The notes under the pieces were generated by a model. It was not told where the DNA came from. It saw only the letters and a list, made by a program, of their open reading frames with translations, and made no database searches. The position numbers were made by a program, and so were the translations under genes. DNA of 64,000 nucleotides from Streptomyces oceani (GTDB lineage: Bacteria; Actinomycetota; Actinomycetes; Streptomycetales; Streptomycetaceae), in contig NZ_LJGU01000114.1 in NCBI RefSeq assembly GCF_001751245.1, forward strand, positions 156,244 to 220,243, read 5' to 3'. Each line of letters opens with the position of its first letter. Position 1 is the first letter of the stretch. Shown here in pieces: positions 984-16,903 of this stretch.

Positions 984-1038
984 GGAGGCAGGGTGGAGCG
1001 CGGCTCGCTGTCATGCGTTCCCGCACGAGTCTGGTAAG

Positions 1039-1123
1039 TGTCCGAGGGGGGACTTGAACCCCCACGCCCGATAAAGGGCACTAGCACCTCAAGCTAGCGC
1101 GTCTGCCATTCCGCCACCCGGAC
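1039..1123 (-). tRNA. tRNA-Leu (anticodon GAG)
   Basis: Read on the minus strand this is an 85-nt class II tRNA. The 7-bp acceptor stem starts GTCCGGG and pairs with CCTCGGAC at the 3' side (one G-U pair), with A73 as discriminator. The anticodon stem CTAGC/GCTAG encloses the loop TTGAGGT, which places GAG at positions 34-36. A long variable arm follows and the T loop reads GTTCAAGTC. CCA is not encoded. Decodes CUC (and CUU). Confidence 0.95.
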
Positions 1124-1290: not shown

Positions 1291-2373
1291 TCAGTCCCGC
1301 CCGCAGGTACGCAACGCGCGCAGGTGCTGGCTGGAGCGGCGGGCCGTGCTGAGCGAGCCGGCGGGGTTCGCCTCCGGGTCGACGGCGTCGTCACGTTCCA
1401 CCGCCCAGTGGTGCCGGCGTCGGTGGCCCGGAAGCCGGCCGACCTCGCTGAGGAAGTGCTGGTAGTCGATGTCGCCGTCGCCGACGTCGGTCATCCGGTA
1501 GCCGTCCGGGAGGTCCTCGTCGTGCTCCCCGTCCTTGACGTGGAAGAGCGGGAACCGGTCCGGCGCCGCCCGCACGTAGTCCAGCGGCTCGAACGGCGCC
1601 GGGCTGCCGTCCGGCCGTACGCTGTACTTGTGCTGCCCGGCGAAGGCCCAGTAGATGTCCATCTCCAGGTACACCAGCTCCGGGTCGGTCTCCTCCAGCA
1701 GCAGGTCGTAGAGCCGTACGTCCGGGCGGTCGGTGGCGAAGCCGAACTCGTCGGCGTGGTTGTGCTGGTAGAACTTCAGGCCGCGGGCCCGGGCCGCCGC
1801 GCCGTACACGTTGAACTCCTCGGCCGCGCGCTTCCACGCGTCGACGGTGTCACCGTAGCGGTTCGGGCTCGACGGGGTGCCGACGTGGGTCAGGCCGAGG
1901 GCCTGCGCGTCGTCGAGGACCTGTTCCAGTCGGGTGGCGAAGGTGTACGCGTCCGGGTCACCGCCGTCGGCGTGGTAGCCGACGTGGCTGCCGAGGCCGC
2001 GTAGCCCGTTGTCCCGCAGCAGCCGGTGCAGTTGGCGCAGGCTGATCTCGCCGGTGCCCTGGGTGTAGCCGGCGAACTCCACCTCGTCGTAGTGCTGGCG
2101 GGCCAGTTCCTCGAAGAGCGGCCCGAAGCCGATGGACCGCACCTGGTCCCGCAGGGTGTAGAGCTGGATGCCGAGCCGCCCGGGCGGCAGCACGGGGCGT
2201 CCGTGGCCGCGAGCGGACGGGCTCGTCGAGGCGCCGTCCGCGGCGCGGGCGGTTCCGGCGCCCAGTTCCGTACCCAACAGAGAGGCCGCGGTGGCGCCGG
2301 CGGCGACGCCGAGGAGGCCACGGCGGCGGAGTCTGCGGGTCAGGTCCGGGCGGGGCGTGGGACGTCGGGTCAT
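1291..2373 (-). CDS. Tat-exported sugar phosphate isomerase/epimerase (TIM barrel)
   Basis: A 360-residue xylose-isomerase-like TIM-barrel protein (AP endonuclease 2 fold), predicted to act outside the membrane. The N-terminus has a twin-arginine signal: RRLRRRGLLG, then an Ala-rich hydrophobic stretch and a likely cleavage after TARA. Barrel segments include LGIQLYTLRDQ, the metal-site-like FYQHNHADEFG and LFHVKDGEHD. The start is ATG at 2373, preceded by GGAGG, and overlaps the eboF-like stop by 4 nt (ATGA), so it is the last gene of the operon starting at 9623. Such secreted isomerase-like proteins often act on keto-sugars or glycosides, but the substrate here is unknown. Fold and export are well supported; chemistry is inference. 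Confidence 0.85.
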   Translation of the reverse strand: MTRRPTPRPDLTRRLRRRGLLGVAAGATAASLLGTELGAGTARAADGASTSPSARGHGRPVLPPGRLGIQLYTLRDQVRSIGFGPLFEELARQHYDEVEFAGYTQGTGEISLRQLHRLLRDNGLRGLGSHVGYHADGGDPDAYTFATRLEQVLDDAQALGLTHVGTPSSPNRYGDTVDAWKRAAEEFNVYGAAARARGLKFYQHNHADEFGFATDRPDVRLYDLLLEETDPELVYLEMDIYWAFAGQHKYSVRPDGSPAPFEPLDYVRAAPDRFPLFHVKDGEHDEDLPDGYRMTDVGDGDIDYQHFLSEVGRLPGHRRRHHWAVERDDAVDPEANPAGSLSTARRSSQHLRALRTCGRD

Positions 2374-3878
2374 GGGGTGCCTCCGGTGGTGTGTCGGGTG
2401 GACGGGATGGCGTCGGTGGACGGGACGGTCGCGGTGTGCGGGGCGCTGACCGGCTCGGCCCGTAGGCCGGCGAGGTCCAGCAGCAGTCGCTTGACCTCGG
2501 TGGCCGCCACCGACTCGGGTACGGCGCCGGGTCGGGAGCAGAGCAGCACCGGCCCCTCCGCCGCGTCGTCCGGCAGCCTGCCGTGGCTGCCGCCCAGGGG
2601 GCTGGGGTCGAGCGGCACGACCGCCATCCGGTAGCGCATGCCGGTCTTCTTCCGGGCGAGCGCGGTGGCGGCGCGCAGCCGCACGTACGGGTCGTGCGGG
2701 TCCAGGAACAGCTCGACCGGGTCGTAGCCGGGTTTCCGGTGGATCTCCACCAGCCGGGCGAAGTCCGGGGCCCGGTCGTCGTCCAGCCAGTAGTAGTACG
2801 TGAACCACGCGCCCGGTTCGGCGACCGCGACGAGCTCGCCGGCTCGGGGATGGTCCAGGCCGTACGCCTTCTTGCCCCGCTCGTCCAGGAGTTCGCCGAC
2901 GCCGTCGAGCCCGGCGAGCGCGGCTCGCGCCGCCGGCAGGTCGGCCGGGCGGCGGACGTAGACGTGCGCGAGCTGGTGGTCGGCGACGGCGAACGCCCGG
3001 GAGGTGGTGGGGTCCAGGTACTCCATGCCGTCCTGGGTGTGCACCTCGAGCAGGCCGGCCTCGCGCAGCGCCCGGTTGAGGTGCACGGGCCGGTTGACGG
3101 GGGTGATGCCGTACTCCGACAGCGCGACGACGGTACGGCCCTCGGCGGCGGCGTCGGCCAGCAGCGGGGCGAGCGCGGCGTCCAGGGCGGTTGCGGCGGC
3201 ACGGGCCCGCGGGTCGTCGGGGCCGTACCGCTGGAGGTCGTAGTCCAGGTGCGGGACATAGCACAGCGCCAGGTCGGGGTGCCGGGTGCGCAGGATGTGG
3301 CGGGTGGCGTCGATGATCCACCGCGAGGAGGTCAGCCCGGCGTGCGGGCCCCAGAAGGTGAACAGCGGGAAGGTGCCGAGGACTTCCTCGAGTTCGTCGT
3401 GCAGGGCCGGCGGTCGGGTGTAGCAGTCCGGCTCCTTGCGGCCGTCGGCGTAGTAGACCGGGCGGGGCGTGACGGTCCAGTCGGTGTCCGCGCCCATGGC
3501 GTACCACCAGCAGATGTTGGCGACGGTGTAGCCGGGGTGGGCGGCACGGGCGGCGTCCCACAGCTTCTCGCCGCCCACCAGCGCGTTGTGCTGCCGCCAG
3601 AGCAGCACCTCGCCCAGCTCCCGGAAGTACCAGCCGTTGCCGACGATGCCGTGCCCGGAGGGCGGCAGCCCGGTGAGGAAGGTGGACTGGGCGGCGCAGG
3701 TGACCGCCGGCAGGACGGTGCCCAGCGCCGCCTGCGAGCCGCTCTCGGCCAGCGACCGCAGGTGCGGCATGTGGGCCAGCAGCCGTGGGGTGAGGCCGAC
3801 GACGTCGAGTACGAGCAACGGCTGCGGGGCGTCGCCACCGGACGAGGCGGAGGGCGTATTCGGGTCGGATGGCGTCAC
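2370..3878 (-). CDS. eboF: EboF-like type I phosphodiesterase / nucleotide pyrophosphatase
   Basis: A 502-residue protein of the alkaline phosphatase superfamily (PF01663). Visible signs are the metal-binding start LLVLDVVGLTP, the nucleophile region VLPAVTCAAQSTFLTG with a Thr candidate, GHGIVGNGWY, and later SEYGITPVNRP and FTYYYWLDDDRAPDFA. There is no signal peptide. In cyanobacterial and other ebo operons, eboF is a phosphodiesterase of this type; its substrate is unknown. The start GTG at 3878 overlaps the eboE stop (GTGA), and the stop overlaps the next ATG (ATGA), so it is translationally coupled on both sides. A longer open frame extends upstream, but it only shadows eboE. Superfamily call is firm; the Ebo assignment rests on the neighbours. 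Confidence 0.82.
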   Translation of the reverse strand: MTPSDPNTPSASSGGDAPQPLLVLDVVGLTPRLLAHMPHLRSLAESGSQAALGTVLPAVTCAAQSTFLTGLPPSGHGIVGNGWYFRELGEVLLWRQHNALVGGEKLWDAARAAHPGYTVANICWWYAMGADTDWTVTPRPVYYADGRKEPDCYTRPPALHDELEEVLGTFPLFTFWGPHAGLTSSRWIIDATRHILRTRHPDLALCYVPHLDYDLQRYGPDDPRARAAATALDAALAPLLADAAAEGRTVVALSEYGITPVNRPVHLNRALREAGLLEVHTQDGMEYLDPTTSRAFAVADHQLAHVYVRRPADLPAARAALAGLDGVGELLDERGKKAYGLDHPRAGELVAVAEPGAWFTYYYWLDDDRAPDFARLVEIHRKPGYDPVELFLDPHDPYVRLRAATALARKKTGMRYRMAVVPLDPSPLGGSHGRLPDDAAEGPVLLCSRPGAVPESVAATEVKRLLLDLAGLRAEPVSAPHTATVPSTDAIPSTRHTTGGTP

Positions 3879-5137
3879 GGCAGCTCCTTGAGGCCGAGGT
3901 CGGCGAGCAGGTCCCGGGCGACGGCGAGTTCGGCCGCGATGCCGTCGGCGAGCTGTGCGCGGGTGCGGGGGCGTAGCCCTTCCGGCAGGGCCTGCCAGGT
4001 GTACGTCTCGACTTCGAGGTGGTGGGTCAGCGGTCGCGGCCCGCCGAGCAGTTCGGTCAGGGTGTCCCGCAGCACGGACAGGGTGGCCGTCAGTGGCGGG
4101 CGTAACGGCGCGTGCAGCGGCACGTGGAAGTGCGCGCGCCAGGGCACCTCGGTGGGCAGGGCGCCCGGGGTGAGGGCGGCGTCCAGGTCGTCGGTGCCGG
4201 TCAGACCAGGCAGGCCGGTCTGGCCGGTCGGAGCCGCCGGGCCGCCCTGAAGCGCCGGTCCGTCTCCAGCCACCTCGTCGCTCCGGGCCGCCGGGTCGAC
4301 CGCCGCCCGGGTCTGGTGCAGGAAGCGCGGCTCGGCGTACTCGGCGAGCGCGGCTCGTACGTCCGCGCGCCGTGGCTCCTGGGCGTGCAGGGCGGCGGAC
4401 AGCTGTGCCTTGACGACGGGGACGCCGGCCCCGGCGAGCGCGGTCAGCGCGGTGCTGGGGTCCTCGAAGGCGGTGGCGAGGTGGCAGGTGTCCAGACACA
4501 GGCCGAGGCGACGGGCGGGTGGCGCGTGCGCGTCGGTGAGCACGGCGACGGCCTGGTCGGTGGTCTCCACGACACAGCCGGGTTCGGGCTCCAGGCCGAC
4601 CCGGATACTGCGCCCGGTCAGCTCCTCCAGGGCGTCCAACCGCCCGGCGAGGGTGTTCAGTTGGTGTAGCGCGGTACGACGGTCGTGCTCGGTGAAGCCG
4701 GTGCGCCAGGCGAGCGGGAGGGTGGATACGGTGCCCTCGCGTACGTCGTCCGGGAGCAGCCCGGCCAGCAGTCGCGCGAGATCGACGGTGTGGTCCAGGC
4801 GGGCGCTCTCGGTCCAGTCGGGGCGGTAGACGCGATGCTTGACGGTCTCGGCGCCGAAGCCCTCGTACGGGAAGCCGTTGAGGGTGACCACCTCGAGTCC
4901 GCGGGCGTCCAAGGCGGCGCGCAGCCGGCGCAGCGCGGCCGGGTCGGCGGTCAGTTCCCGCGCCGCCGCGCGGGCCAGCCACAGGCCGATGCCGAGCCGG
5001 TCCCGGTGCAGCCGGCGACGCACGGGTTCGGCGTGGTCGGCGAGTTGCCGCAGGACGCCGTCCAGGTCCTCGGCGGCGTGCACGTTGGTGCAGTACGCGA
5101 GGTGGACGGTGCTGCCGTCGGGGTGCCGGAAGCGCAT
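3875..5137 (-). CDS. eboE: Metabolite traffic protein EboE (TIM-barrel)
   Basis: A 420-residue xylose-isomerase-like TIM-barrel protein of the EboE family. The start MRFRHPDGSTVHLAYCTNVH is the family's characteristic N-terminus. Further family blocks are LNGFPYEGFGAETVKHRVYRP, VGLEPEPGCVVETTD, LGLCLDTCHLATAFED (metal-type Cys/His/Asp) and WRAHFHVPLH. In cyanobacteria the ebo operon is needed to move a scytonemin precursor to the periplasm; the reaction of EboE itself is not known. ATG at 5137 lies 2 nt after the eboB stop. A Gly/Pro-rich linker of about 40 residues sits near residue 290. Identification is strong by sequence and by its EboA/EboB neighbours. Confidence 0.9.
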   Translation of the reverse strand: MRFRHPDGSTVHLAYCTNVHAAEDLDGVLRQLADHAEPVRRRLHRDRLGIGLWLARAAARELTADPAALRRLRAALDARGLEVVTLNGFPYEGFGAETVKHRVYRPDWTESARLDHTVDLARLLAGLLPDDVREGTVSTLPLAWRTGFTEHDRRTALHQLNTLAGRLDALEELTGRSIRVGLEPEPGCVVETTDQAVAVLTDAHAPPARRLGLCLDTCHLATAFEDPSTALTALAGAGVPVVKAQLSAALHAQEPRRADVRAALAEYAEPRFLHQTRAAVDPAARSDEVAGDGPALQGGPAAPTGQTGLPGLTGTDDLDAALTPGALPTEVPWRAHFHVPLHAPLRPPLTATLSVLRDTLTELLGGPRPLTHHLEVETYTWQALPEGLRPRTRAQLADGIAAELAVARDLLADLGLKELP

Positions 5138-5139
5138 GG

Positions 5140-5994
5140 TCAGTCCCCGCCGCGGAGCACGGAGTTGCCTTCGTGGCTGCTGTCCGGCGCGGGCAGCCGC
5201 AGGTCGAGCCGGCCGCTGAGACCGTAGAAGGCGACCGGGTTGCGCCACAGCACCTGGTCGACCTCGTCCTCGTGGTGGCCGGCCGCCAGCATGGCGTCAC
5301 CGACTCGGCGGGTCTTCAGCGGATCGCTGCGGCCCCAGTCGGCGGCGGAGTTGACGAGTATCCGGTCCTGGCAGGAGGCGTACTCGGCGAGCAGGGTCAC
5401 CATGCGCCGCTCGTCCATCTTGGTGTGCGGATAGATGGAGAAGCCGAGCCAGCAGCCGCTGTCGGCCGCGGCGGCGACGGTGGTCTCGTTGAGGTGGTCG
5501 AGCAGCACACGTTCCGGCGGCAGCGCCGATTCCCGTACGAGATCCAGGGTGCGGGCCAGCCCGGCGGCCTTGTCCCGGTGCGGGGTGTGCACGAGGGCGG
5601 GCAGGCCGTGTTGGGCGGCGAGGTCGAGTTGGGCGGCGAGCGCGGCGTCCTCGGCGGGGGTCATGGCGTCGTAGCCGATCTCGCCGACGGCGACGACGGA
5701 GTCCTTGAGCAGGTAGCGCGGCAGGGTGTCCAACACGGGGGCGCAGCGGGGGTCGTTGGCCTCCTTCGGATTCAGCGCGAGGGTGCAGTGGTGGACGATG
5801 CCGTGCTGGGCGGCGCGAAAGGGCTCCCAGCCGAGTAGCGAGTCGAAGTAGTCGTGGAAGCTGTCGGGCGAGGTGCGGGGCTGCCCGAGCCAGAAGGCGG
5901 GTTCGACGACGGCTCGCACCCCGGCGGCGTGCATCGCGACGTAGTCGTCGGTGGTGCGGGAGGTCATGTGGATGTGCGGGTCGAAGAGGCGCAT
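5140..5994 (-). CDS. eboB: EboB-like TatD-family metal-dependent hydrolase
   Basis: A 284-residue amidohydrolase-fold protein of the TatD group. Metal-site residues are visible: the HxH in LFDPHIHMTSRTTDDY near the N-terminus, His in LVHTPHRDKAAG, His in VLLDHLNETT and Asp in NSAADWGRSDP. TatD relatives are metal-dependent nucleases or hydrolases, but EboB members act in the ebo pathway on an unknown substrate. The start ATG at 5994 overlaps the eboA stop by one base (TGATG). A longer open frame upstream covers eboA antiparallel codons and is not used. Good family support; function within the operon is inference. Confidence 0.88.
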   Translation of the reverse strand: MRLFDPHIHMTSRTTDDYVAMHAAGVRAVVEPAFWLGQPRTSPDSFHDYFDSLLGWEPFRAAQHGIVHHCTLALNPKEANDPRCAPVLDTLPRYLLKDSVVAVGEIGYDAMTPAEDAALAAQLDLAAQHGLPALVHTPHRDKAAGLARTLDLVRESALPPERVLLDHLNETTVAAAADSGCWLGFSIYPHTKMDERRMVTLLAEYASCQDRILVNSAADWGRSDPLKTRRVGDAMLAAGHHEDEVDQVLWRNPVAFYGLSGRLDLRLPAPDSSHEGNSVLRGGD

Positions 5995-6722
5995 CAGGAC
6001 TCCTTCCCGGTGAGCGTCAGCACGTGGCACAGGTCCGTGGGGACGTCCCGGCCGGCCGCGGTGCGTTCGGCGGCGTAGTCGGCGAGCATCCGGGCCAGTT
6101 CGCGGTCGCCGGCGGCGCGCCGGGACAGTGCGCTGATCGCCGCCACGGGTATCCCGGTGAACAGGCACTTCAGGACCGCCTGCCGCCAGGCGGGCGGGTC
6201 AAGGTGGGTGGCGGCGTACGGGCCGAGGGCGGCAGCGATCAGCCGGGTGTCGTTGGTCCGCAGCGCGTCCGTCACCAGGTGCAGGGCCTCCGGTCCGGCG
6301 GTCAGGTGGGGCAACGCGCGCAGCACGGCGCGGCGTTCGGCGCCGGTGCCGCGGGTGTAGAGCCGGGTGAGGGTCCCGGTGCGGACGCCGGCGGCGTGCA
6401 GCAGCAGGACCCGGGCCACGGTGGCGGGGTCGTCAGGGGCGCCAGCGTTGTCAGGGGTGTCAGGGATGTCAGAGTCGCCGGGTGCCTGCGGTCCCACGGC
6501 CTCCGGTTTCGTACGGCGGCAGCGGCGCCCGGCGGCGGCGAAGTGCGCCTCCCAGGCCGGTAGCGGGGCCGGCCCGTCCGTGGCCGCGGGCTCGGGGCCG
6601 GCGCGCCGGACCTCGGCCAGGGCCTCGTCCAGCCAGTCCCTGCCGGCCGCGTCCGTACGACGGCACAGCCAGCGGTACGCCTCGTCGAGCAGCGGGTCCT
6701 CCCGGCCGCCGCCGGTCAGCAC
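5994..6722 (-). CDS. eboA: EboA domain protein
   Basis: A 242-residue protein with the EboA hallmark segment VLKCLFTGIPVAAISALSRR near residue 185, followed by a helical C-terminus. An Asp/Pro-rich linker (about residues 80-100) separates two helical parts. EboA has no known catalytic activity. The start is GTG at 6722, overlapping the preceding isomerase stop by 7 nt; the stop overlaps the eboB ATG. Immediate context with EboB and EboE makes the identification solid. No signal peptide or membrane segment is visible, so a cytosolic role is likely. Confidence 0.85.
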   Translation of the reverse strand: MLTGGGREDPLLDEAYRWLCRRTDAAGRDWLDEALAEVRRAGPEPAATDGPAPLPAWEAHFAAAGRRCRRTKPEAVGPQAPGDSDIPDTPDNAGAPDDPATVARVLLLHAAGVRTGTLTRLYTRGTGAERRAVLRALPHLTAGPEALHLVTDALRTNDTRLIAAALGPYAATHLDPPAWRQAVLKCLFTGIPVAAISALSRRAAGDRELARMLADYAAERTAAGRDVPTDLCHVLTLTGKES

Positions 6723-7651
6723 CGCTGCTCCGGAGCGGTCGCGGCCGATTCCCGAGCGGCGGACTCACGTACGCCCTCCCGTACGGGCTGTTCGCACGCC
6801 GGGTCGGCCGCCCGCAGGAAAGGCAGCGAGGACGCCGCCAGCTCGGGTCCAGCGGGCGAGTGGCGAGGCAGTTCCACGGTGACCAGTCCCTCGTACGCGA
6901 CCTCGTGCAGCGCGGCCAGCACCGGCGGGAAGTCCATCTCGCCCTCCCCGAAGGGCAGGTGCTCGTGCCGGCCACGGCGCATGTCCTCGATCTGCACGTG
7001 CCGCAGCCAGGGGGCGCTGGCACGCACGCACTCGGCGGGCGGCAGCTCCTCCAGGCACTGGCAGTGCCCCAGATCGAGGGTCAGGCCGAGTCCCGGTGGC
7101 TCCCCCAGGGCGCGGCGCAGCCGGTGGAAGCCGGCCAGGTCCTCGACCAGATGGCCCGGTTCCGGTTCCAGCGCCACCGGCACGCCCAGCCGGTCCGCTT
7201 CCGCCAGCACGTCGCCGATCCCCTCCGTCAGTCGCCGCCACGCCGCCGTCTCGGAAGTGCCCGGCGGCGTACTCCCGCTGAAGCAGTGCAGGGCGGTGGC
7301 ACCGAGGTCGGCGGCCACCCGTACGGCGCGGCACAGCAGGTCGACGCGGGCCCGCCGGCCGTCCGGTTCGGGATCGAGCAGGCTGGGGCGGTGCTTGCGG
7401 CGCGGGTCGAGTACGTAGCGCGCGCCGGTCTCGACAGCGACCGACAATCCGTGCCGCTGGAGGGTTCCGGCCACCTCGGCGGTACGGCGCCGCAGGTCGG
7501 GGGCGAGCGGGTCCAGGTGCATGTGGTCGAGGGTCAGTCCGACGCCGGCGTAGCCGAGGTCGGCGAGCAGGGCCAGCGCGTCGGACAGCCGGAGATCGGC
7601 GAGGCCGTTGGTGCCGTAGGCCAGCCGCAGGGGAGATACGGGCTGCGTCAA
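6716..7651 (-). CDS. Sugar phosphate isomerase/epimerase family protein (cytosolic TIM barrel)
   Basis: A 311-residue xylose-isomerase-like TIM-barrel protein without a signal peptide. Barrel and metal-site blocks are LAYGTNGLADLRLSDAL at the N-terminus, GVGLTLDHMHLDP, ALHCFSGSTPPG, VALEPEPGHLVED, LTLDLGHCQC and WLRHVQIEDM. The likely start is TTG at 7651, which overlaps the UbiA stop (TTGA) and is preceded by AAGGTGAG at a good distance. Within an operon with inositol-3-phosphate synthase it may isomerise or cleave an inositol or keto-sugar compound, but this is inference. It is a second, distinct barrel protein besides EboE and the exported one at the operon end. Confidence 0.82.
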   Translation of the reverse strand: MTQPVSPLRLAYGTNGLADLRLSDALALLADLGYAGVGLTLDHMHLDPLAPDLRRRTAEVAGTLQRHGLSVAVETGARYVLDPRRKHRPSLLDPEPDGRRARVDLLCRAVRVAADLGATALHCFSGSTPPGTSETAAWRRLTEGIGDVLAEADRLGVPVALEPEPGHLVEDLAGFHRLRRALGEPPGLGLTLDLGHCQCLEELPPAECVRASAPWLRHVQIEDMRRGRHEHLPFGEGEMDFPPVLAALHEVAYEGLVTVELPRHSPAGPELAASSLPFLRAADPACEQPVREGVRESAARESAATAPEQRC

Positions 7652-8523
7652 GTCGGGCTCACCTTTCGGGAGAGTCGGCGGGCCAGCGGTAGCAGGGCGA
7701 GCAGCGTGGCCGCGGTGCGCGGCGCTCCGGCGCGCCCGGCGAGGGTGGCCTGCAGGGGGATCATGGCGCGGATGCCGCCGCCCACCGCCCGCTGGTAGAG
7801 CGGCGGTGAGGGGTTGAGCGCCGCGTGGGCGAGCGGCCGGGCCGCGGTGGCGAGATAGCCGGCGGCCAGCGCGGACGTGGCGTACGCGCCCGGTCCCGGG
7901 CGGCGCCCCGCGCCGTACGCCACCGCGGTCATCGTCCCGAGGGCGGCCAGCGGCAACGCGGTGGAACCCCCGGTGGTCTCCCGGCGCGAGACGGTGGTGA
8001 CGGCGAGGGTGTGCGCGCCCAGTAGCCCGGCGGCGTGCCGGGCCGTACGGGGCGCGGGCCCGCCAGCGGTCGCCGTCGCGCCGAGCAGCAGATCCAGCGC
8101 GCGGGCGGTGGCCATCGCGGTGGGGCCGGCGGCGGTGTGCTTGAGTCCGAGGTCGTACGCCCACACGGAACCGGCCAGCGCCGTGGCCACCCCGAGTGCC
8201 GGCCGGCCGGCGCACCCGGCGAGACCGAGCCCGGCGGCGGTCAGCGTGCCGGCGGCGGTGAGGGCGGCGGTCGGGCTGATCCGGCCGGACGGCAGCGGGC
8301 GCGTGGGGCGTTCGACACGGTCGATACGCCGGTCCGCCCAGTCGTTCAGCGTCATACCGGCCTCGTACAGGCACAGGGAGCTGCCGAGCGCCAGCGCGGT
8401 CCGCCGGTTCGCACCGCCACCGGTGGCGGCGGCACCCGCGAACGCGTCCCCGGGCACGCTGCACAGGGCCGAGACCCGCAGCAGTTGGGCCCAGGCGGCG
8501 GCACGACTCCGTCCGCCCGTCAC
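7648..8523 (-). CDS. eboC: EboC-like UbiA-family prenyltransferase
   Basis: A 291-residue integral membrane protein with about eight hydrophobic helices. The first UbiA aspartate motif is clear: NDWADRRID at residues 60-68, followed by RPTRPLPSG at 72-80. A second aspartate region, VWAYDLGLKHTA, is present. UbiA enzymes move a prenyl group from a polyprenyl diphosphate to an acceptor at the membrane; the acceptor in ebo systems is unknown. The start GTG at 8523 overlaps the synthase stop (GTGA). Gene order next to inositol-3-phosphate synthase raises the possibility of a prenylated cyclitol or sugar product (inference). Confidence 0.88.
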   Translation of the reverse strand: MTGGRSRAAAWAQLLRVSALCSVPGDAFAGAAATGGGANRRTALALGSSLCLYEAGMTLNDWADRRIDRVERPTRPLPSGRISPTAALTAAGTLTAAGLGLAGCAGRPALGVATALAGSVWAYDLGLKHTAAGPTAMATARALDLLLGATATAGGPAPRTARHAAGLLGAHTLAVTTVSRRETTGGSTALPLAALGTMTAVAYGAGRRPGPGAYATSALAAGYLATAARPLAHAALNPSPPLYQRAVGGGIRAMIPLQATLAGRAGAPRTAATLLALLPLARRLSRKVSPT

Positions 8524-9623
8524 GCCGGCTCCCGCAGCCGCTCGCCGAGGGCCAGCAGGTCCCGCCACTGCTCGGACAGGGCGCTGGACCCGGTGTCGGG
8601 GTCCTTGAAGTAGAAGCCGAGGCCCGTCACCGGTCCGGCCACACCGAGTTGGTGTGCCCGGGCCACCAGGCGTACGAGGTCCAGGACCAGCGGCGCGGCC
8701 AGTGCCGAGTCGCAGCCCTGCCAGATGGTCTGCAGCATCATGCGGGAGCCGAGGAAGCCGTCGAAGGCGACGTGGTCCCAGGCGGTCTTCCAGTCTCCCA
8801 GTGCCGGCACGTCGTCGATGTGCACCTCGCCTTCCGGCAGTTGACCGAGTTCCTCGGCGAGCACCCGCTCCTTGCCGGCGTTCTTGGCCGCCGCCGCGCC
8901 CGGGTCGGTCAGCGCGGCCCCGTCGCCGCCGCCCAGCAGGTTGGTGCCGGACCAGGCGCGTACGTCCAACGCGCGCCGCGCGAACATCGGCGCGAGCACG
9001 GAACGCAGCAACGTCTGTCCGGTCTTGCCGTCCCGGCCGGCGTACGGCAGTCCGGAGTCCAGCGCTGCGTGCCGCACCTTGGGGTGGTGCAGGCCGGTGG
9101 ACGGCGTGAAGTTGACGTACGCGCAGCCTGCCCGGAGCGCGGCGGCCGCGTACCGGGAGCTGGGCGGCAGCTCGGCGCCGAGGGGCGCGGCCTCGGTGCT
9201 GGCGAGGTTCACCACGACGGTGCGGTCCAGCCGGTGCGTCTGGCCGAACGCGGTCATGTCCTCGGCGAGCGCCGACACCAGCCGCTCCTCGCCCCGTGGG
9301 TCGGCCGGCTCGGTGCCGGGACGTACGGACTCGTCGGCCGCGGCGAGTTCGGCCCGTACGCCGGCGGGCAGGCCGGGCGGCAGGGCTCCGGAGACGACCA
9401 GCTCCTCGGCCCGCTTGGGCAGCGGCGTGGGGGCCGGATCGTGGCCGCCGAAGACCAGGCTGTCCACCGGCGGCAACGGGCAGTCGGCGAACGGCTCGGT
9501 CGCGGTGACCATGCCGGTCGGCGGGTGCAGGCCCGCGGTCACGGCCGCGGCGCCCGCGATGACGGTGGTGGCGACGGAGCCGCGCGCACCGATCAGCCAC
9601 ACACCGGTTCTTTCCCCGACCAT
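8520..9623 (-). CDS. ino1: Inositol-3-phosphate synthase (MIPS) family
   Basis: A 367-residue protein of actinobacterial MIPS length. MIPS converts glucose 6-phosphate to inositol 3-phosphate with NAD. Visible blocks: the NAD-binding start VWLIGARGSVATT, YVNFTPSTG, GRDGKTGQTLLRSVLAP, WSGTNLLGGGDG and the active-site type LGDWKTAWDHVAFDGFLG. The first gene of the eight-gene operon: ATG at 9623 is preceded by GGAGGT with 5-nt spacing, and about 520 nt of non-coding DNA lies upstream. The position corresponds to where ebo operons often have a dehydroquinate-synthase-like EboD, also a sugar-phosphate cyclase type enzyme. It may be a specialised paralogue of the housekeeping MIPS rather than the main one (inference). 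Confidence 0.88.
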   Translation of the reverse strand: MVGERTGVWLIGARGSVATTVIAGAAAVTAGLHPPTGMVTATEPFADCPLPPVDSLVFGGHDPAPTPLPKRAEELVVSGALPPGLPAGVRAELAAADESVRPGTEPADPRGEERLVSALAEDMTAFGQTHRLDRTVVVNLASTEAAPLGAELPPSSRYAAAALRAGCAYVNFTPSTGLHHPKVRHAALDSGLPYAGRDGKTGQTLLRSVLAPMFARRALDVRAWSGTNLLGGGDGAALTDPGAAAAKNAGKERVLAEELGQLPEGEVHIDDVPALGDWKTAWDHVAFDGFLGSRMMLQTIWQGCDSALAAPLVLDLVRLVARAHQLGVAGPVTGLGFYFKDPDTGSSALSEQWRDLLALGERLREPA

Positions 9624-9901
9624 CCTCTACCTCCCTGTGCTGCGAACAATTCCGACTAACCCACTTCCAGGTTCTGCGGTACGGCTCCTGTCCTCGCGGT
9701 CCTGTTGCTTCCGGGTTCGCCCGCTCCCCGCCCGGCCGCTTCAGCCCCCGCCCCAACAGTCCGGTGTTCCTCCGAGGGTTCGCCCGCCTCCCCACCCGCG
9801 GTTCTGTGGGTACAGCGAGTGAGCCGAAGAGCGCGCCGGTGTTGAAAGTGACGAGACCAAATGAGCGAGCTTGCGAGCGAGTGCAGTGTCGAGGAGTGTC
9901 A

Positions 9902-9985
9902 ACACCGGGTACGAGCGCTCGGAGGCGAACCGAGCACAACCAGTCGACACCGGGTACGAGCGCCCGGAGGCGAACCGAGCGCAAA
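9902..9985. repeat. two 39-bp direct repeats, 45-bp period
   Basis: Copies at 9902-9940 and 9947-9985 share the core ACCGGGTACGAGCGC and GGAGGCGAACCGAGC with only a few differences. Inside each copy GCTCGG or GCCCGG faces CCGAGC across AGGCGAA, giving a small hairpin (perfect 6-bp arms in the first copy, 9917-9935). Origin unknown; only two copies with a 6-nt separator, so not a CRISPR array. Confidence 0.7.
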
Positions 9986-10046
9986 GAGGGTGAACCGAGT
10001 GCAGAGGAAGGGGGACGGCGGGTGGGAGTCGGCGTTCTCCGCACCC

Positions 10047-10099
10047 GCCGCCGGCGTCGCCGGTAACCCCCCTCGGGCTTCCGGCGACGGGTCGGCGGC
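10047..10099 (-). terminator. strong hairpin after the ThuA-family gene
   Basis: Arms 10047-10063 and 10081-10099 pair over about 16 bp with a small bulge and a 17-nt loop. It lies 44 nt beyond the stop of the minus-strand ThuA/3-keto-hydrolase gene and before the next minus-strand operon. Confidence 0.6.
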
Positions 10100-10142
10100 C
10101 CGGCCGGGATTCGGTCCGGCCAGGGCACGGTGGCGGGCAGGG

Positions 10143-11516
10143 TCAGGGGGCGGGCGTGGGTAGTTCCTTCAACCGGACGTCGCGGAAGGACACTTCGTCG
10201 GCATCACCGTGGTTCTGCAGGCCGATGTGCCCGTCGGTGAGGCTGCGTGCGGGGTCCTCGTTGGTGAAGTCGTTGATCAGTTCGCCGTTGAGAAAGACGC
10301 GCAGTCGCTCGCCCTCGACCCGGATCTCGTACGTGTTCCACTCCCCCGGCGGGTTGAGTGCCGCGTCTCGGGCCTCGATGTCGGCTGCCTGGAAGCCGTA
10401 GACGGACCCGGTGGTGCGCGCAGGGTCGTCGGTGGCGTCGATCTGGATCTCGTAGCCGTTGTCGACCGCGGACATCGGGTCGTCGGAGGCCGGGAAGCCC
10501 ACGAAGATCCCGGAGTTGTCGTCCCCGGCCATCCGCCAGTCCAGCTTGAGCGAGTAGGCGGAGAGTTCCTTGGTGCCGTACCAGTACAGGCCCATGCCGC
10601 CGACGCTGGTCAGGGTGCCGTCCTCGGCCTGGCGGAACGATCCGGGCCCGGCCTGTTGCCAGCCGTCCGTGTCGCCTGGCCCGGTCAGCGGCGTGTAGCC
10701 CTGTTCGGGCCGGCAGTCGGCCTGGGTGGCGCCGGTGGCGTACCGCACGCCGCCGAGCAGGTGTTGCCGGAAGGCGTCGTCGGCGAACGACTCCTTGGTG
10801 TGGCCGCTCCCGGTGTAGAAGGCCCGCCCGCCCTCGTACTCCTGGCACCAGGCGATCGGGTGGTCGCCGTCCATGGTGCCGCCGGTGTACGAGTCCTCGT
10901 CGAGGCTGGCCAGCACCCGGGCTCGGTCGCGCGGGTTGCTGCGGTAGTTGTACCACTCGTCGGTTCGCTGCCACTCGTGCGGAAGGTGCGCGGTGGCGGG
11001 ATGCGCGTGGTCCTCGACGCGCACCGTGGCGGGCTGGACGGGCGGGTGCGAGTCGAAGTACGCGCCGGCCAGTTCGCCGTAGAACGGCCAGTCGTACTCG
11101 GTGTCGGCGGCGGCGTGTACTCCGACGTAGCCGCCGCCCTCCTGGACGTAGTCCTCGAAGGCCCGTTGCTGCTGGGCGTTCAACACGTCCCCGGTGGTGG
11201 AGAGGAACACCACCGTGGCGTACCGCTCGAGGTTCTTCGTGGTGAACCGGCCGGCGTCCTCGGTCGCGTCCACCGTGAAGCCGTGCTCGTCGCCGAGCTC
11301 GGTCAGCGCGGTGATGCCGTCCGGGATGGAGTCGTGGCGGAAGCCCTCGGTCTTGGAGAAGACCAGTATCCGGGGGTCTTCCGTCGCCGCCACCGGGCCG
11401 CCGCCCGGCGGTGCCGATTCGGCGGATGCGCTGGCGGTCTGGCCGGGCACGGCCATGGCGCCCAGGAGCAGCGCGGCGGAGGCGAGCGCCACGGCCGGGG
11501 TGCGTTTCGGTCTCAT
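10143..11516 (-). CDS. Exported ThuA domain plus 3-keto-disaccharide hydrolase (DUF1080) protein
   Basis: A 457-residue secreted protein. A Sec-type signal peptide ends near residue 32 (AVPGQTASASA). Residues about 50-255 form a ThuA-like domain (PF06283, glutamine-amidotransferase fold): ILVFSKTEGFRHDSIPDG, GGGYVGVHAAADTEYDW, GGRAFYTGSGHTKESF. Residues about 275-450 form a PF06439 domain: GMGLYWYGTKELSAYSLKLD, DNSGIFVGFP, NGYEIQID, GEWNTYEIRVEGERL. PF06439 proteins hydrolyse 3-keto-disaccharides or glycosides; ThuA acts in the 3-keto-trehalose route of rhizobia. It lies 12 nt after the sorbosone dehydrogenase gene, in one operon. Domain calls are firm; substrate is inferred. Confidence 0.88.
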   Translation of the reverse strand: MRPKRTPAVALASAALLLGAMAVPGQTASASAESAPPGGGPVAATEDPRILVFSKTEGFRHDSIPDGITALTELGDEHGFTVDATEDAGRFTTKNLERYATVVFLSTTGDVLNAQQQRAFEDYVQEGGGYVGVHAAADTEYDWPFYGELAGAYFDSHPPVQPATVRVEDHAHPATAHLPHEWQRTDEWYNYRSNPRDRARVLASLDEDSYTGGTMDGDHPIAWCQEYEGGRAFYTGSGHTKESFADDAFRQHLLGGVRYATGATQADCRPEQGYTPLTGPGDTDGWQQAGPGSFRQAEDGTLTSVGGMGLYWYGTKELSAYSLKLDWRMAGDDNSGIFVGFPASDDPMSAVDNGYEIQIDATDDPARTTGSVYGFQAADIEARDAALNPPGEWNTYEIRVEGERLRVFLNGELINDFTNEDPARSLTDGHIGLQNHGDADEVSFRDVRLKELPTPAP

Positions 11517-11528
11517 CAGTCACTCCCC

Positions 11529-13994
11529 TCAGCTCGTGGTGAAGGTGAAGTCGTCGAGGGTGTAGAGCGCTCCGTCGCCGCCCTTGAACACCAGGTGCAG
11601 CTTCGTGGTGTCCTCGGGGACGTTCTGCAGCGGCGCGGTGACCTCCTCGTACGTTTCCCCTCCGCCGGTGTCGGCAACCTCGGCGCTGCCGAGCAGGGTG
11701 CCGTCCGGACCGTCGGCGCGTACTTCGAGGGTGCCGCCGCCTCCGTCGGAGGCGACGCGGGCGCTGAACTCGGTCGCTCCGGTGAGGGCGTAGGGCTCGA
11801 AGGCGATCCAGTCGCCGTCGTGGATCTCCCCGACTGCCTTGCCGCCGTGGGCCGAGTCCTGCGAGATCACCTTGACGCCCTCGGCGTCGTCGTGGTGTTC
11901 GGCCTGCCGCTGCTTGGTCTGCAGGATGCCCTCGTCGTGGGTGGTCAGTTCGGGTTGTCCGTTGGCGCCGTCGTCGGTGTACTCGGCGTCGAGCACGCCG
12001 AAGATGTTGGCGTTGGGATCGTGTTCGCCGTCCGACTTGGTCTGCAGGGTGCCGGAACAGCCGTTGGCCGAGGTCTGCGGGTGACCGTGGGTGTCGTGTC
12101 CGATGATGAAGGTCACCTTGACCTTCGAGCAGTCGATCTCGGCGTCCTCCGGGTCACTGACCTTGACCTCGTACGGCACCTTGTCGCCGAAGGAGAACAG
12201 CTCTCCGTCCTTGGGCTGTTGGATCTCCACGGTGGGCGCGGTGTTGCCGACGGTGACGTGCGCGGAGGCGGTGCCGGTGCGTCCGGAGGGGTCGGTGGCG
12301 GTGACCGTGGCGGTGTAGACGCCGTTCTCCTGGTAGGTGTGCGTCGGGGAGATCTTGTCCGAGGTCTCGCCGTCGCCGAAGTCCCAGGAGTAGGTCAGCT
12401 TGTCGCCGTCGCCGTCGCTGCTGCCCTCGGCGGAGAAGGCGACCTCGAGCGGCGCCTGGCCGTTGGTCACGTCGGCGGTGGCCTCGGCGACCGGGGAGTG
12501 CCCGTCGGTGGCGTTCTCGATCCGGTAGAGCGCGGAGTTCTCGTCCCCGGCGAAGTATCCGGTGCCGTAGTCGAGGACGTACAGCGCGCCCTTGGGGCCG
12601 AAGGCCATGTCCATCACCTGGGTGCCCTTCCAGGGGAAGTCGTTGATGGACTGCACGCCGCCGTCCGCGCCCTGCTCGATCCGCTTGATCCACTTGCGGC
12701 CGAACTCGCCGGCGAAGAAGTCGCCGTCGTACTCCTCGGGGAACTTCACCTTGGAGTCCAGCTGCTCGTCGTACTGGTAGACGGGTCCGCCCATCGGGGA
12801 TTCGGAGCCGTCCCCGAACTCCGGCACGGAGTCACCGTCGTACGCGATCCACGCGCCCTTGGCCGGGGGCAGTTTCTCCAGGCCGGTGTTGTGCGGCGAG
12901 TCGTTGACCGGCGCCGCGCAGTCGAAGGACTCGCCGGAGGTGCCGCCGTCGAAGTCGTAGTCGGTGTACGGGTCGTTCTTGCCGGTGCAGTACGGCCAGC
13001 CGTAGTTGCCGGGCTCGGTGATCCGGTTGAACTCGACCTGGCCGGACGGCCCGCGGGCTGGATCGGCGGTGCCGGCGTCCGGGCCGTAGTCGCCGACGTA
13101 GATGGTGCCGGTGGACTTGTCGACGTTCATCCGGAACGGGTTGCGGAAGCCCATGGCGTAGATCTCGGGCCGGGTCTTCTCGGTGCCGGGCTCGAAGAGG
13201 TTGCCTTCCGGGATGTCGTACGAGCCGTCGGCGCCGACCTTGATCCGCAGGATCTTTCCGCGCAGGTCGTTGGTGTTGCCGGCGGACCGCTGGGCGTCGA
13301 AGGCGGGGTTGCGGTCGGCGCGTTCGTCGATGGGCGTGTAGCCGTCGGACTGGAAGGGGTTGGTGTCGTCCCCGGTGGACAGCAGGAGGTTGCCGTCGGT
13401 GTCGAAGGCGATGTCGCCGCCGACGTGGCAGCAGAGGCCGCGGTTCGCGGGCACGTCGAGGATCTTGGTCTCGCTGCCCGTGTCCAGCGTGCCGTCCTCC
13501 TTGAGGACGAACCGGGAGAGCCGGTTGACACCGTCGAACGGTGCGAAGTCGGCGTCCGTGCCGGTCTCCGGGGCGTCACCCTCCGGGGTGTCCATGGGCG
13601 GCGCGTAGTAGAGGTAGACGAAGCGGTTCTCGGTGAAGTCGGGGTCGACGCCGATCCCTTGCAGGCCCTCCTCGTCATGACGGTAGGTCGGGATCTCGCC
13701 GGCGACGCTGGTCGTACCGCCCTCGTCGGTCAGCCGGACGACGCCGTCCCGCGCGGTGTGCAGCACGGAGCGGTCCGGCAGCACGGCCATGGTCATCGGC
13801 TCGCCCATCTCGGTCTTTCCCTTGGCGAGGGTGACCTGTTGGAACTGGGCGGCGGCCGACTCCTCGGCGGCGGGTTCCGCGGCGTGCGCGGGGTCCGCCT
13901 GGCCGGGGGTGACACCGGCGACCAGGCCGCCGATGAGCAGGGCGCTCGCGAAGCCCGCGAGTCGGGTGCGGAATCTACGGTGTTTCCTGTGCAC
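11529..13994 (-). CDS. Exported glucose/sorbosone dehydrogenase-type protein with PKD and CBM6-like domains
   Basis: An 821-residue secreted protein. The start is taken as GTG at 13994 because AGGAGG (14001-14006) lies 6 nt upstream and a good signal peptide follows (MHRKHRRFRTRLAGFASALLI in methionine notation shortened here; cleavage near AHAA). Longer starts at 14030 or 14057 lack a ribosome site. Residues about 40-480 form a six-bladed propeller of the GSDH/sorbosone type: GLQGIGVDPDF, LCCHVGGDIAFD, GMGFRNPFR-like YAMGFRNPFRMNVD, YGWPYCTG. Next a PKD domain (YSWDFGDGETSD, PSGRTGTASAHV) and a C-terminal CBM6-like carbohydrate-binding part (DWIAFEPYALTGATEFSARV). Acts probably as an extracellular sugar oxidase in the same operon as the ThuA protein. 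Confidence 0.85.
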   Translation of the reverse strand: MHRKHRRFRTRLAGFASALLIGGLVAGVTPGQADPAHAAEPAAEESAAAQFQQVTLAKGKTEMGEPMTMAVLPDRSVLHTARDGVVRLTDEGGTTSVAGEIPTYRHDEEGLQGIGVDPDFTENRFVYLYYAPPMDTPEGDAPETGTDADFAPFDGVNRLSRFVLKEDGTLDTGSETKILDVPANRGLCCHVGGDIAFDTDGNLLLSTGDDTNPFQSDGYTPIDERADRNPAFDAQRSAGNTNDLRGKILRIKVGADGSYDIPEGNLFEPGTEKTRPEIYAMGFRNPFRMNVDKSTGTIYVGDYGPDAGTADPARGPSGQVEFNRITEPGNYGWPYCTGKNDPYTDYDFDGGTSGESFDCAAPVNDSPHNTGLEKLPPAKGAWIAYDGDSVPEFGDGSESPMGGPVYQYDEQLDSKVKFPEEYDGDFFAGEFGRKWIKRIEQGADGGVQSINDFPWKGTQVMDMAFGPKGALYVLDYGTGYFAGDENSALYRIENATDGHSPVAEATADVTNGQAPLEVAFSAEGSSDGDGDKLTYSWDFGDGETSDKISPTHTYQENGVYTATVTATDPSGRTGTASAHVTVGNTAPTVEIQQPKDGELFSFGDKVPYEVKVSDPEDAEIDCSKVKVTFIIGHDTHGHPQTSANGCSGTLQTKSDGEHDPNANIFGVLDAEYTDDGANGQPELTTHDEGILQTKQRQAEHHDDAEGVKVISQDSAHGGKAVGEIHDGDWIAFEPYALTGATEFSARVASDGGGGTLEVRADGPDGTLLGSAEVADTGGGETYEEVTAPLQNVPEDTTKLHLVFKGGDGALYTLDDFTFTTS

Positions 13995-14251
13995 GCGTGT
14001 CCTCCTGGGAGGTCTAACGGCGGGTGACATGGTGTCGTTGACCGTCTTGCCTGGCACAGGCGCGCGCCGTCGCGCCGGGTTTCTCGGTTCGGCCGGTGTC
14101 GGTCTCGCTCGGCCGGTGTCGGTTTCGTCCCGGATGAGTACGGGGTTCGGGGCTGCGGTTGAGGGGTGAGGGGGCAGCCGCGGTTCGTGCTCCTCCGAGG
14201 ACGGTAGCCATCTTCGTCTAGTTCGGAAACCCCTTTCACAAATAGGAAGTT

Positions 14252-14278
14252 GGCTTTATCCCGCGCCTGGACAAAGCC
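14252..14278. promoter_or_regulatory. imperfect dyad, candidate operator of the dehydrogenase/ThuA operon
   Basis: GGCTTTATCC (14252-14261) and GGACAAAGCC (14269-14278) are inverted repeats with one mismatch and a 7-nt spacer, in an AT-richer stretch upstream of the operon starting at 13994. Could be bound by a sugar-responsive regulator such as the ROK protein nearby; inference only. Confidence 0.4.
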
Positions 14279-14288
14279 TTGTGGCATA

Positions 14289-14447
14289 AGAGCGTCCGGC
14301 AGTAGGTGGGTGGAGGAAGGAGGGCGTCGAGGCCCAAGTCCGGCAAGACGGAGGAGGGAGGCAGCCGGAGGCGCTGTCGACCGACGACAACGCCGCCAGA
14401 CGCCAGGCGTCGGCGGCCGACGCCGCCCACCTACTGCCGGACGCTCT
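14289..14447. repeat. 159-nt element with perfect 22-bp terminal inverted repeats
   Basis: The 22 bases at 14289-14310 are the exact inverse complement of 14426-14447. Pairing continues imperfectly inwards, and the centre can form another hairpin (GGCGCTGTCG facing CGACAACGCC). A TA dinucleotide lies just outside the left end (14287-14288) and at the right end (14447-14448). It begins 8 nt after the stop of the minus-strand isomerase gene, so it may act as a terminator, or be a MITE-like mobile remnant. Confidence 0.7.
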
Positions 14448-14454
14448 AAGGGGG

Positions 14455-15465
14455 TCAGCTCTCCTCGGCACCACCGAAGGCCGCGTCGAAGGAGGCGCGC
14501 GGCGGTTCGTAGTCGTACGCCCGCAACCGCCGCAGAGCCTCGGGCGCACCCTGTAGCCGGTCCATACCGGCGTCCTCCCACTCGACGGAGACCGGTCCCT
14601 CGTAGCCGATGGCACGCAGCATCCGGAACACGTCCTCCCAGGCGACGTCGCCGTGTCCGGCCGAGACGAAGTCCCAGCCGCGGCGCGGGTCGCCCCAGGG
14701 CAGGTGCGAGCCAAGCCGTCCGTTGCGGCCGTCCAGGCGGCGCCGGGCCTCCTTGCAGTCCACGTGGTAGACGCGGTCCCGGTAGTCGTAGAGGAAGCCG
14801 GCCGGGTCCAGGTCCTGCCAGACGAAGTGGCTCGGGTCGAAGTTCAGGCCGAAGGCGGGCCGGTGGTCGACCGCCTCCAGGGCGCGCTGGGTGGTCCAGT
14901 AGTCGTACGCGATCTCGCCGGGGTGCACCTCGTGGGCGAACCGCACGCCCTCCGCGTCGAAGACGTCGAGCACCGGATGCCAGCGCTCGGCGAAGTCGGC
15001 GTACCCGCGCTCCACCATGTGCGGCGGGGTGGGCGGGAACATCGCCACCAGGTGCCAGATCGACGAGCCGGTGAAACCGACCACCGTACGCACCCCGAAG
15101 GCCGCCGCCGCACGCGCGGTGTCGGCCATCTCGGCCGCGGCCCGCCGGCGCACGCCCTCCGGTTCGCCGTCCCCCCAGATCCGGTCGGGCAGGATGGCCT
15201 GGTGCCGCTCGTCGATGAGGGCGTCACAGACGGCTTGTCCGACCAGGTGGTTGGACACGGCCCAGCAGCGCAGCCCGTACCTCTCCAGCAGTTCGTGCCG
15301 GCCGGCGAGGTAGCCGGGCTCCCGCAGGGCGCGGTCCACCTCGAAGTGGTCGCCCCAGCAGGCGAGTTCCAGGCCGTCGTAGCCGAAGTCCCGGGCGAGT
15401 CGGCACACCTCCTCCAGTGGGAGATCGGCCCACTGCCCGGTGAACAGGGTGAAGGATCTCGGCAT
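14455..15465 (-). CDS. Sugar phosphate isomerase/epimerase (IolE-like TIM barrel)
   Basis: A 336-residue cytosolic xylose-isomerase-like TIM-barrel protein. Metal-site and barrel blocks: [83 protein letters not shown]. The start is ATG at 15465, with AAGGAG 8-9 nt upstream; a longer open frame to 15501 lacks a ribosome site. It follows the Gfo/Idh/MocA dehydrogenase gene on the same strand, separated by three 16-bp repeats. Such dehydrogenase/isomerase pairs act in inositol or 3-keto-sugar metabolism. Substrate unknown. Confidence 0.87.
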
Positions 15466-15543
15466 CAGCTCTCCTTGGTGACGAGACGAGTGGTCGGGCA
15501 CGCGGTGACCCGGCGCGAGCGTGCCAAGGCCCGCGGTCGGGGC

Positions 15544-15591
15544 GTCGGTACGTACGGGGGTCGGTACGTACGGGCGTCGGTACGTACGGGG
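15544..15591. repeat. three tandem 16-bp repeats with GTACGTAC palindrome
   Basis: Unit GTCGGTACGTACGGG plus one variable base occurs three times (15544, 15560, 15576), ending exactly at the stop of the dehydrogenase gene at 15592. Each unit holds the palindrome GTACGTAC. Could be a slippage product or a binding/processing site in the operon's intergenic RNA. Confidence 0.75.
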
Positions 15592-16755: not shown

Positions 16756-16824
16756 GAAGCTCCTCCCTGGTGGAGAACGGTGCCGTTCCTGCTGGAGCGG
16801 CACGGGTGCGGTGGCGGTCAACCC

Positions 16825-16870: not shown

Positions 16871-16903
16871 GGTTGGCCGTTGGCGGCTGTGAGCGGTCCG
16901 GGG

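Follow-up and report, generated by a model that had tools for sequence, protein, structure and literature searches.

What does an inositol-3-phosphate synthase (MIPS) do at the head of an ebo operon? The question is raised by a stretch of 64,000 nucleotides from Streptomyces oceani (contig NZ_LJGU01000114.1, positions 156,244–220,243; hereafter the window), in which eight co-directional genes follow one another on the minus strand from position 9623 to position 1291. The published ebo operon consists of six genes, eboABCDEF (PMC5133447), and a role in the traffic of a metabolite to the periplasm has been proposed for it from Nostoc mutants (PMC6282210, available part of the text). In the ebo literature searched its chemistry is unsolved. 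The initial annotation had described the eight genes of the window as a complete ebo operon. They do form a run without real gaps, coordinates, minus strand and junctions (overlaps of 1–7 nt plus one 2-nt gap) all being verified. The word complete is wrong because the published operon's sugar phosphate cyclase, EboD, is absent: none is found in the operon, and the genome's single match to PF01761 (DHQ-synthase family) lies on a different contig, C109. The presence of MIPS therefore needs explaining, and the informative point, which had been missed, is that MIPS stands in EboD's place.

The operon is a real and conserved variant of the known ebo operon with MIPS in place of EboD, and the best reading of the sequence comparisons is that MIPS takes the cyclase role of EboD in the phylum of the window (Actinomycetota). 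The best explanation as a whole, to which we give a probability of roughly 0.55, is that MIPS forms a cyclitol, that the UbiA-type prenyltransferase encoded next to it prenylates the MIPS-derived inositol, and that the prenyl-inositol lipid so formed is used in membrane traffic. No report of MIPS in an ebo operon was found among the results listed for the open-licence literature searched, and the word inositol has 0 occurrences in the main text of the ebo papers PMC5133447, PMC6282210, and PMC9235831.

MIPS and EboD in ebo Operons

Besides the window 195 loci were collected; the counts refer to the 173 in which both EboB and EboF are encoded no more than 9 kb from EboE. MIPS only was found in 86 of these, EboD only in 78, both in 0, and neither in 9. 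In the window's phylum (94 loci) 86 loci have MIPS, 1 has EboD and 7 have neither, and outside the phylum (79 loci) 77 have EboD, 0 have MIPS and 2 have neither. The 22 loci dropped because EboB or EboF was missing within 9 kb comprise 9 with EboD, 1 with MIPS (L133), 0 with both and 12 with neither, 10 of the 12 being lone EboE paralogues; L001–L006, which are short duplicates, were excluded. Lone EboE paralogues from the window's class (L140, L170, L173, L183, L184, and L186–L190) score 256–312 bits with the EboE profile and have no other ebo gene in the fetched stretch.

It should be noted that sampling is uneven, no locus being known to be from Pseudomonadota or Planctomycetota, and that the loci from named genomes are the best 80 of at least 581 EboE matches, obtained with a query whose first row is an EboD-type EboE. 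An EboE match was found in 98 of 394 genomes of the window's class (90 above cut-off) and, in the phyla of three EboD-type genomes, in 6 of 251, 7 of 199, and 13 of 198 genomes (5, 6, and 2 above cut-off). All EboE sites above cut-off were taken from the samples of the window's phylum and class and of the phyla of the three EboD-type genomes; below cut-off only G279 and five class-sample matches were used.

The order MIPS-UbiA-TIM1-EboA-EboB-EboE-EboF, with all genes co-directional, is shared by 73 of the 86 MIPS-type loci and is therefore not a matter of chance. Of the other 13 loci, 9 are short of nothing but a separately listed EboA match, 3 have no TIM1 and 1 has no UbiA. MIPS is the first and UbiA the second gene in 85/86 loci, and MIPS keeps this position in loci that represent at least 14 family and 26 genus codes. 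When run on 396 genomes sampled evenly from the window's phylum, the EboE profile matched 19 genomes, 18 of them above cut-off, and of the 19 neighbourhoods that lie outside the window 16 have the full seven-gene set. EboD without MIPS is found in L011, L025 is broken, and L008 is a second copy that lacks MIPS, the other copy in that genome having it.

The MIPS of the operon appears to be a dedicated component. A profile of ebo MIPS, searched in the same 396 genomes with E values up to 1e-60, scores 564–620 bits in 17 genomes, in 17/17 cases within the ebo cluster, and the next-best hit among the matches listed has 321 bits. Of the 18 genomes with EboE above cut-off these 17 carry ebo MIPS; the 18th, G381, has EboD in its cluster. 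A second MIPS is encoded elsewhere in 15 of the 17 genomes (G268 and the 82% complete G318 being those without one), which is why the operon copy looks dedicated. MIPS genes outside the operon are also owned by 4 of 9 EboD-type genomes tested, so that a missing operon MIPS does not always mean a missing gene family. The initial annotation had made its reading depend on a conserved linkage of MIPS and ebo genes in relatives. Over the relatives this linkage holds, in keeping with a MIPS that is conserved in the operon and dedicated to it.

Some observations tell against a strict replacement of one cyclase by the other. The 9 loci with neither cyclase are explained in part, L129, L158, and L159 ending at contig ends and L008 and L121 being second copies; neither cause applies to L037, L052, L025, and L153. 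In L153 the position of MIPS upstream of UbiA is occupied by a GFO/IDH/MocA oxidoreductase gene (L153:12728-14050), and TIM1 is missing. In addition, about four candidates at most were scored per genome, both in the ebo-MIPS scan, to which this objection applies, and in the EboE scans of phylum and class.

In the MIPS-less second copies L008 and L121 a gene for a CrtO/CrtI-like FAD oxidoreductase lies upstream of UbiA, followed by genes for a phosphatase of the inositol-monophosphatase superfamily and a gamma-glutamyltranspeptidase. The phosphatase was not used as evidence for inositol, the closest named model of the L008 protein being histidinol-phosphatase, below cut-off. Nor was the single open frame of MIPS and UbiA in L185 used as a fusion, a long low-complexity stretch lying between the two domains.

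The MIPS Enzyme

The MIPS gene (8520–9623, minus strand, ATG start) encodes 367 amino acids, which match the Pfam domains PF07994 and PF01658 with 110 and 98 bits. The protein belongs to an ebo-specific, archaeal-like subfamily: a profile of 17 operon MIPS sequences, when compared with the PDB, finds the MIPS of Archaeoglobus fulgidus (1u1i) with 328 bits over nearly the full length, MIPS 7nwr with 246 bits, and Ino1 of Mycobacterium tuberculosis (1gr0) with 66 bits. The model for mycothiol-type actinobacterial Ino1 (TIGR03450) gives only 36 bits with the window protein, the cut-off being 638. D225, N255, D261, K274, K278, K306, D332, and K367 of the A. fulgidus enzyme, which we take to be catalytic residues, are identical in the operon profile, and the corresponding D198, N228, D234, K247, K251, K279, D305, and K340 of the window are invariant in 17/17 operon MIPS. 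Mutant chains in the PDB carry alanine at three of the eight (N255, K278, and K367). By its two domains and its Lys/Asp/Asn set the window protein is thus a member of the MIPS family, and since these residues are kept, it is expected to convert glucose 6-phosphate into inositol 3-phosphate.

In the published operon EboD, a sugar phosphate cyclase, is thought to convert sedoheptulose 7-phosphate into a cyclitol; here MIPS, an unrelated NAD-dependent cyclase, would convert glucose 6-phosphate into inositol 3-phosphate. Two unrelated cyclases filling one and the same place in the operon argue strongly, at the level of sequence, that the pathway includes a cyclitol; as a product class, a cyclitol that may be prenylated requires the fewest assumptions. 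The two products would not be equivalent, however: EboD-class cyclases are said to release a product without phosphate (PMC5133447, available part), MIPS keeps the phosphate, and equivalence therefore needs an extra step, which is a point against the replacement as formulated.

The UbiA Prenyltransferase and Its Acceptor

The second gene (7648–8523, minus strand, GTG start, 4-nt overlap with MIPS) encodes a UbiA-type membrane prenyltransferase of the SCO3242 family, the counterpart of EboC. It matches NF045897 with 360 bits (cut-off 260) and reaches 127 bits with the EboC equivalog NF035940, which has a cut-off of 250. Its NDxxDxxxD motif (positions 60–68) and predicted fold place it in the UbiA superfamily. 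Counting the window, N60, D61, D64, and D68 of the motif are invariant in 84/84 MIPS-type and 70/70 EboD-type proteins, and Y123 and R141 of motif II are likewise kept in both operon types. Position 144 differs: it is D in 82/84 MIPS-type proteins, and N in 67/70 and V in 3/70 EboD-type proteins. The difference could reflect a changed acceptor, or ancestry only.

Archaeal digeranylgeranylglyceryl phosphate (DGGGP) synthase transfers a prenyl group onto the hydroxyl of a polyol phosphate. It is this enzyme that the UbiA protein most resembles, if narrowly. A profile made from the window protein and 43 EboD-side proteins finds DGGGP synthase in the PDB with 92 bits, the next match, chlorophyll synthase, having 45 bits, and the structural model of the window protein (pLDDT 94.5) has its best match in DGGGP synthase 6m31 (Z 24.1, root-mean-square deviation 4.2 Å). 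The lead shrinks to 36.2 versus 34.7 bits over chlorophyll synthase when the profile contains MIPS-type proteins only, and ApUbiA comes near to a tie with DGGGP synthase on the model (Z 23.0, root-mean-square deviation 2.7 Å).

Such near ties leave room for another acceptor, for example an aromatic acid, in which case MIPS would still supply a cyclitol that serves as decoration or cofactor of another branch. The experimental precedent comes from an EboC relative found in Maribacter and others, UbiA-297, which in vitro farnesylates 8-hydroxyquinoline-2-carboxylic acid and quinaldic acid (PMC9235831, available part). The 14 acceptors offered to UbiA-297 are all termed aromatic there, so that polyols were probably not among them. 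The ranking of DGGGP synthase first, by profile and by fold, speaks for a polyol acceptor, as does the adjacency of MIPS and UbiA in 85/86 loci. An acceptor unrelated to MIPS is the strongest competitor of inositol, and on balance we consider it unlikely rather than negligible.

A Single Switch Between MIPS and EboD

Quick unrooted trees with SH-aLRT support were calculated from selected loci for EboB (76 rows), EboE (63 rows), and EboF (54 rows), and on each of them a single change from one cyclase to the other suffices. In the EboB tree L018 (with MIPS) and L200 (with EboD) are on an unresolved fork at the base of the EboA side. EboD is found together with EboA in Bacteroidota and Cyanobacteria and also in operons in which the EboA profile found none (Chloroflexota and most of the Acidobacteriota seen). 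Its occurrence in operons with and without an EboA match tends to favour EboD as the older state on these unrooted trees.

With one switch per tree the counts given above are to be read as one old replacement that has since been retained rather than as many independent events. The argument for a functional exchange loses weight accordingly: because the exclusion reflects one historical switch, shared ancestry alone could give both the exclusion counts and the D144/N difference in UbiA. Taken further, MIPS might be an inherited passenger that adds to the inositol supply of mycothiol or phosphatidylinositol synthesis, a view for which the single switch on three trees and the confinement of ebo MIPS to one phylum in the sample can be cited. 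A mere passenger would not be expected from the other findings, namely a second MIPS elsewhere in most of the genomes with ebo MIPS, a subfamily that in 396 genomes turned up in the ebo cluster and nowhere else, a first position kept over so many family and genus codes, and no locus having MIPS together with EboD. We regard a passenger as improbable and keep to the reading that MIPS has taken over the cyclase role.

The Other Proteins of the Operon

TIM1 (6716–7651, minus strand, TTG start, 4-nt overlap; PF01261, 151 bits), a xylose-isomerase-like TIM barrel, is the companion of MIPS, being present with at least 150 bits in 83/86 MIPS-type versus 0/78 EboD-type loci. In five loci TIM1 and EboA share one open frame. 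Compared with the PDB, the TIM1 profile finds many epimerases and isomerases, the best with 76 bits (MJ1311), and gives no substrate prediction. EboA (5994–6722, minus strand, GTG start, 7-nt overlap) is all-helical; it matches domain NF035938 with 160 bits (cut-off 50) and reaches 72 bits with the narrower family model NF035937, the cut-off of which is 320. Its model (pLDDT 87) has no PDB match at E 0.001 and hence says just that the protein is helical; a scaffold function is a guess.

EboB (5140–5994, minus strand, ATG start, 1-nt overlap; PF01026, 43 bits, cut-off 27) is a TatD-like metal-dependent hydrolase. H7, H9, E105, H136, H167, and D219, presumably its metal ligands by analogy to TatD, are present in 87/87 MIPS-type and 78/78 EboD-type proteins, and 68 positions are at least 90% conserved in both operon types. 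EboE (3875–5137, minus strand, 2-nt gap; NF035939, 415 bits, cut-off 250) is a TIM barrel. Shared positions of EboB, EboE, and UbiA are conserved across both operon types.

EboF (2370–3878, minus strand, GTG start, 4-nt overlap; PF01663, 227 bits, cut-off 23) is usually named a phosphodiesterase. It has a phosphodiesterase/alkaline-phosphatase fold with a rewritten metal site, and 120 of its positions are at least 90% conserved in both operon types. In an alignment with the nucleotide pyrophosphatase/phosphodiesterase (NPP) 2gsn, the Asp of SIDGL is replaced by V27, the His of GHDHG by Q216, and the Asp-His of SDHG by E255-Y256, and the nucleophilic Thr (T60), D212, and H432 are kept, the roles of these positions in 2gsn as metal ligands and nucleophile being taken by us as given. 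Thus four of seven aligned positions are replaced, and the dinuclear ligands plus Thr nucleophile of an NPP-type zinc phosphodiesterase are not found together in the window protein. V27, Q216, E255, and Y256 are present in 87/87 MIPS-type proteins each and in 78/78, 78/78, 76/78, and 78/78 EboD-type proteins, respectively; E255, Glu for Asp, is a mild change. Since the replacements occur in both types, neither allows a dephosphorylation by EboF to be taken for granted. A phosphate-containing substrate of EboF has been argued for from family membership (PMC5133447, section 17), where the replaced residues are not discussed. The initial annotation had EboF dephosphorylate a prenylated inositol phosphate. 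This is not supported, the site being altered in nearly all of the 165 EboF proteins, and EboF is equally present with EboD, a cyclase class with a phosphate-free product (PMC5133447, available part). If a step is hydrolytic, EboB with its conserved residues is more likely than EboF to catalyse it.

Accessory Genes

The last gene of the run (1291–2373, minus strand, ATG start, 4-nt overlap; PF01261, 55 bits) encodes a TIM barrel with RRRGLL near its N terminus, judged by eye to be Tat-like. A match of at least 80 bits within 9 kb of EboE is present in 40/86 MIPS-type versus 0/78 EboD-type loci and absent in 46/86 MIPS-type loci. In the window's genus it is found in 23/27 MIPS-type loci, in other genera in 17/59. 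With this patchy occurrence by genus, and none with EboD, the gene is a lineage accessory, and the handling of the product outside the membrane by an exported isomerase, as the initial annotation had it, is not supported.

Upstream of MIPS lie the genes of a protein with a ThuA and a 3-keto-disaccharide hydrolase domain (10143–11516, minus strand; PF06283, PF06439) and of a glucose/sorbosone dehydrogenase (GSDH) with PKD and CBM6 domains (11529–14057, minus strand; PF07995, PF18911, PF03422). ThuA-like matches within 9 kb are found in 41/86 MIPS-type versus 5/78 EboD-type loci (20/27 in the own genus versus 21/59 in other genera of the MIPS type), and GSDH-PKD-CBM6 matches in 46/86 versus 4/78 (21/27 versus 25/59). 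The exported TIM barrel, ThuA, and GSDH proteins may constitute a module for sugar processing outside the cell that is not part of the core. From 10143 to 17145 the window carries, besides these two, genes for a TIM barrel that is weakly IolE-like and for a levoglucosan-dehydrogenase/IolG-like oxidoreductase, all four below equivalog cut-offs; this run is perhaps a sugar or cyclitol oxidation module.

The route proposed in the initial annotation, in which an inositol phosphate is prenylated, dephosphorylated by EboF, and finally handled outside by the Tat isomerase, has in its favour the gene content, the Tat-like N terminus, and, in the window's genus, the frequent presence nearby of genes for the exported TIM barrel, ThuA, and GSDH proteins. 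It is made very doubtful by the replaced metal-site residues of EboF and by the 46 of 86 MIPS-type loci in which the exported TIM barrel has no match of 80 bits within 9 kb.

From the gene overlaps the operon is probably translated as a unit. A scan of positions 9500–10300 for a promoter or terminator found none. On its downstream side the operon is adjoined by a tRNA-Leu gene (gag; 1038–1123, minus strand).

A Proposed Prenyl-Inositol Lipid as Product

In the reading preferred here, in which MIPS forms the cyclitol, the UbiA protein, like EboC, would put a prenyl chain on an oxygen of inositol or an inositol derivative. The head group might then be tailored by EboB, EboE, and TIM1, which have conserved metal-site residues, and EboA might hold the proteins together; the part played by EboF would be an unusual one. 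The resulting prenylated inositol lipid would serve the membrane traffic of another metabolite, as proposed for the cyanobacterial ebo system. From sequence comparison such a lipid is plausible. The earlier route has gained in its cyclitol part and is left without support in its steps with EboF and the exported isomerase.

A more far-reaching reading is that ebo operons everywhere make a prenylated cyclitol as carrier lipid, which in the window's phylum is prenyl-inositol, that the module is mobile between natural-product clusters and serves export as in the case of scytonemin, and that EboF is a repurposed phosphodiesterase fold and no ordinary hydrolase. All of this taken together is tentative, and we would not expect every part of it to hold.

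For an operon whose chemistry is unsolved, inositol phosphate would offer a known compound as a starting point for chemical work. Unlike the presumed product of EboD, inositol can be purchased labelled and can be fed. If it is true that Streptomyces coelicolor carries the operon in its calcium-dependent antibiotic (CDA) cluster, the system would be testable in an ordinary laboratory strain.

Comparison with Known Systems

In the available parts of the respective papers SCO3243 of S. coelicolor is annotated as myo-inositol phosphate synthase and SCO3242 as transferase, both in the CDA cluster (PMC3610822), and SCO3237 is a phosphodiesterase of the same cluster, SCO3210–SCO3249 (PMC8981147). The seven locus tags SCO3237–SCO3243, the genes at the two ends by their annotation, fit the seven-gene core, and the NCBI model named after SCO3242 (NF045897) matches the window's UbiA. 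The MIPS-ebo genes of S. coelicolor thus seem to lie inside the annotated CDA lipopeptide cluster. In the loci collected here, the operon of L009 is flanked by the end of a non-ribosomal peptide synthetase, an ABC/FtsX transporter pair, a phosphopantetheinyl transferase, and a TauD-family oxygenase, that of L136 by three FAD aromatic hydroxylases, and that of L191 lies beside a SARP-like regulator. A relative of the peptide synthetase fragment of L009 is found in the fetched stretch of 3/86 MIPS-type loci, one of them weak, so that a natural-product setting is that of a minority. By analogy to scytonemin (PMC6282210, available part) such neighbours would fit a role in the traffic of cluster products.

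Of the individual enzymes, the MIPS of A. fulgidus (1u1i) and MIPS 7nwr resemble the operon MIPS over nearly the full length, with the catalytic residues of 1u1i kept, and differ in that the operon MIPS forms a tight subfamily of its own, found only in ebo operons in the 396-genome sample. DGGGP synthase (6m31, 7bpu) shares the predicted fold and the NDxxDxxxD motif with the window's UbiA; the identity over the aligned model is 17%, and inositol as acceptor of the latter is a proposal. The closest system as a whole is the six-gene ebo operon of Bacteroidota, Cyanobacteria, and eustigmatophyte plastids (PMC5133447; PMC6282210; available parts). It has in common with the operon of the window homologues of EboA, EboB, EboE, and EboF, an EboC-like UbiA, and the presence of a gene for a sugar phosphate cyclase. 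It differs in that the operon of the window has MIPS and TIM1 instead of EboD, the gene order MIPS-UbiA-TIM1-A-B-E-F, and a UbiA protein that fits the SCO3242 family model rather than the EboC model.

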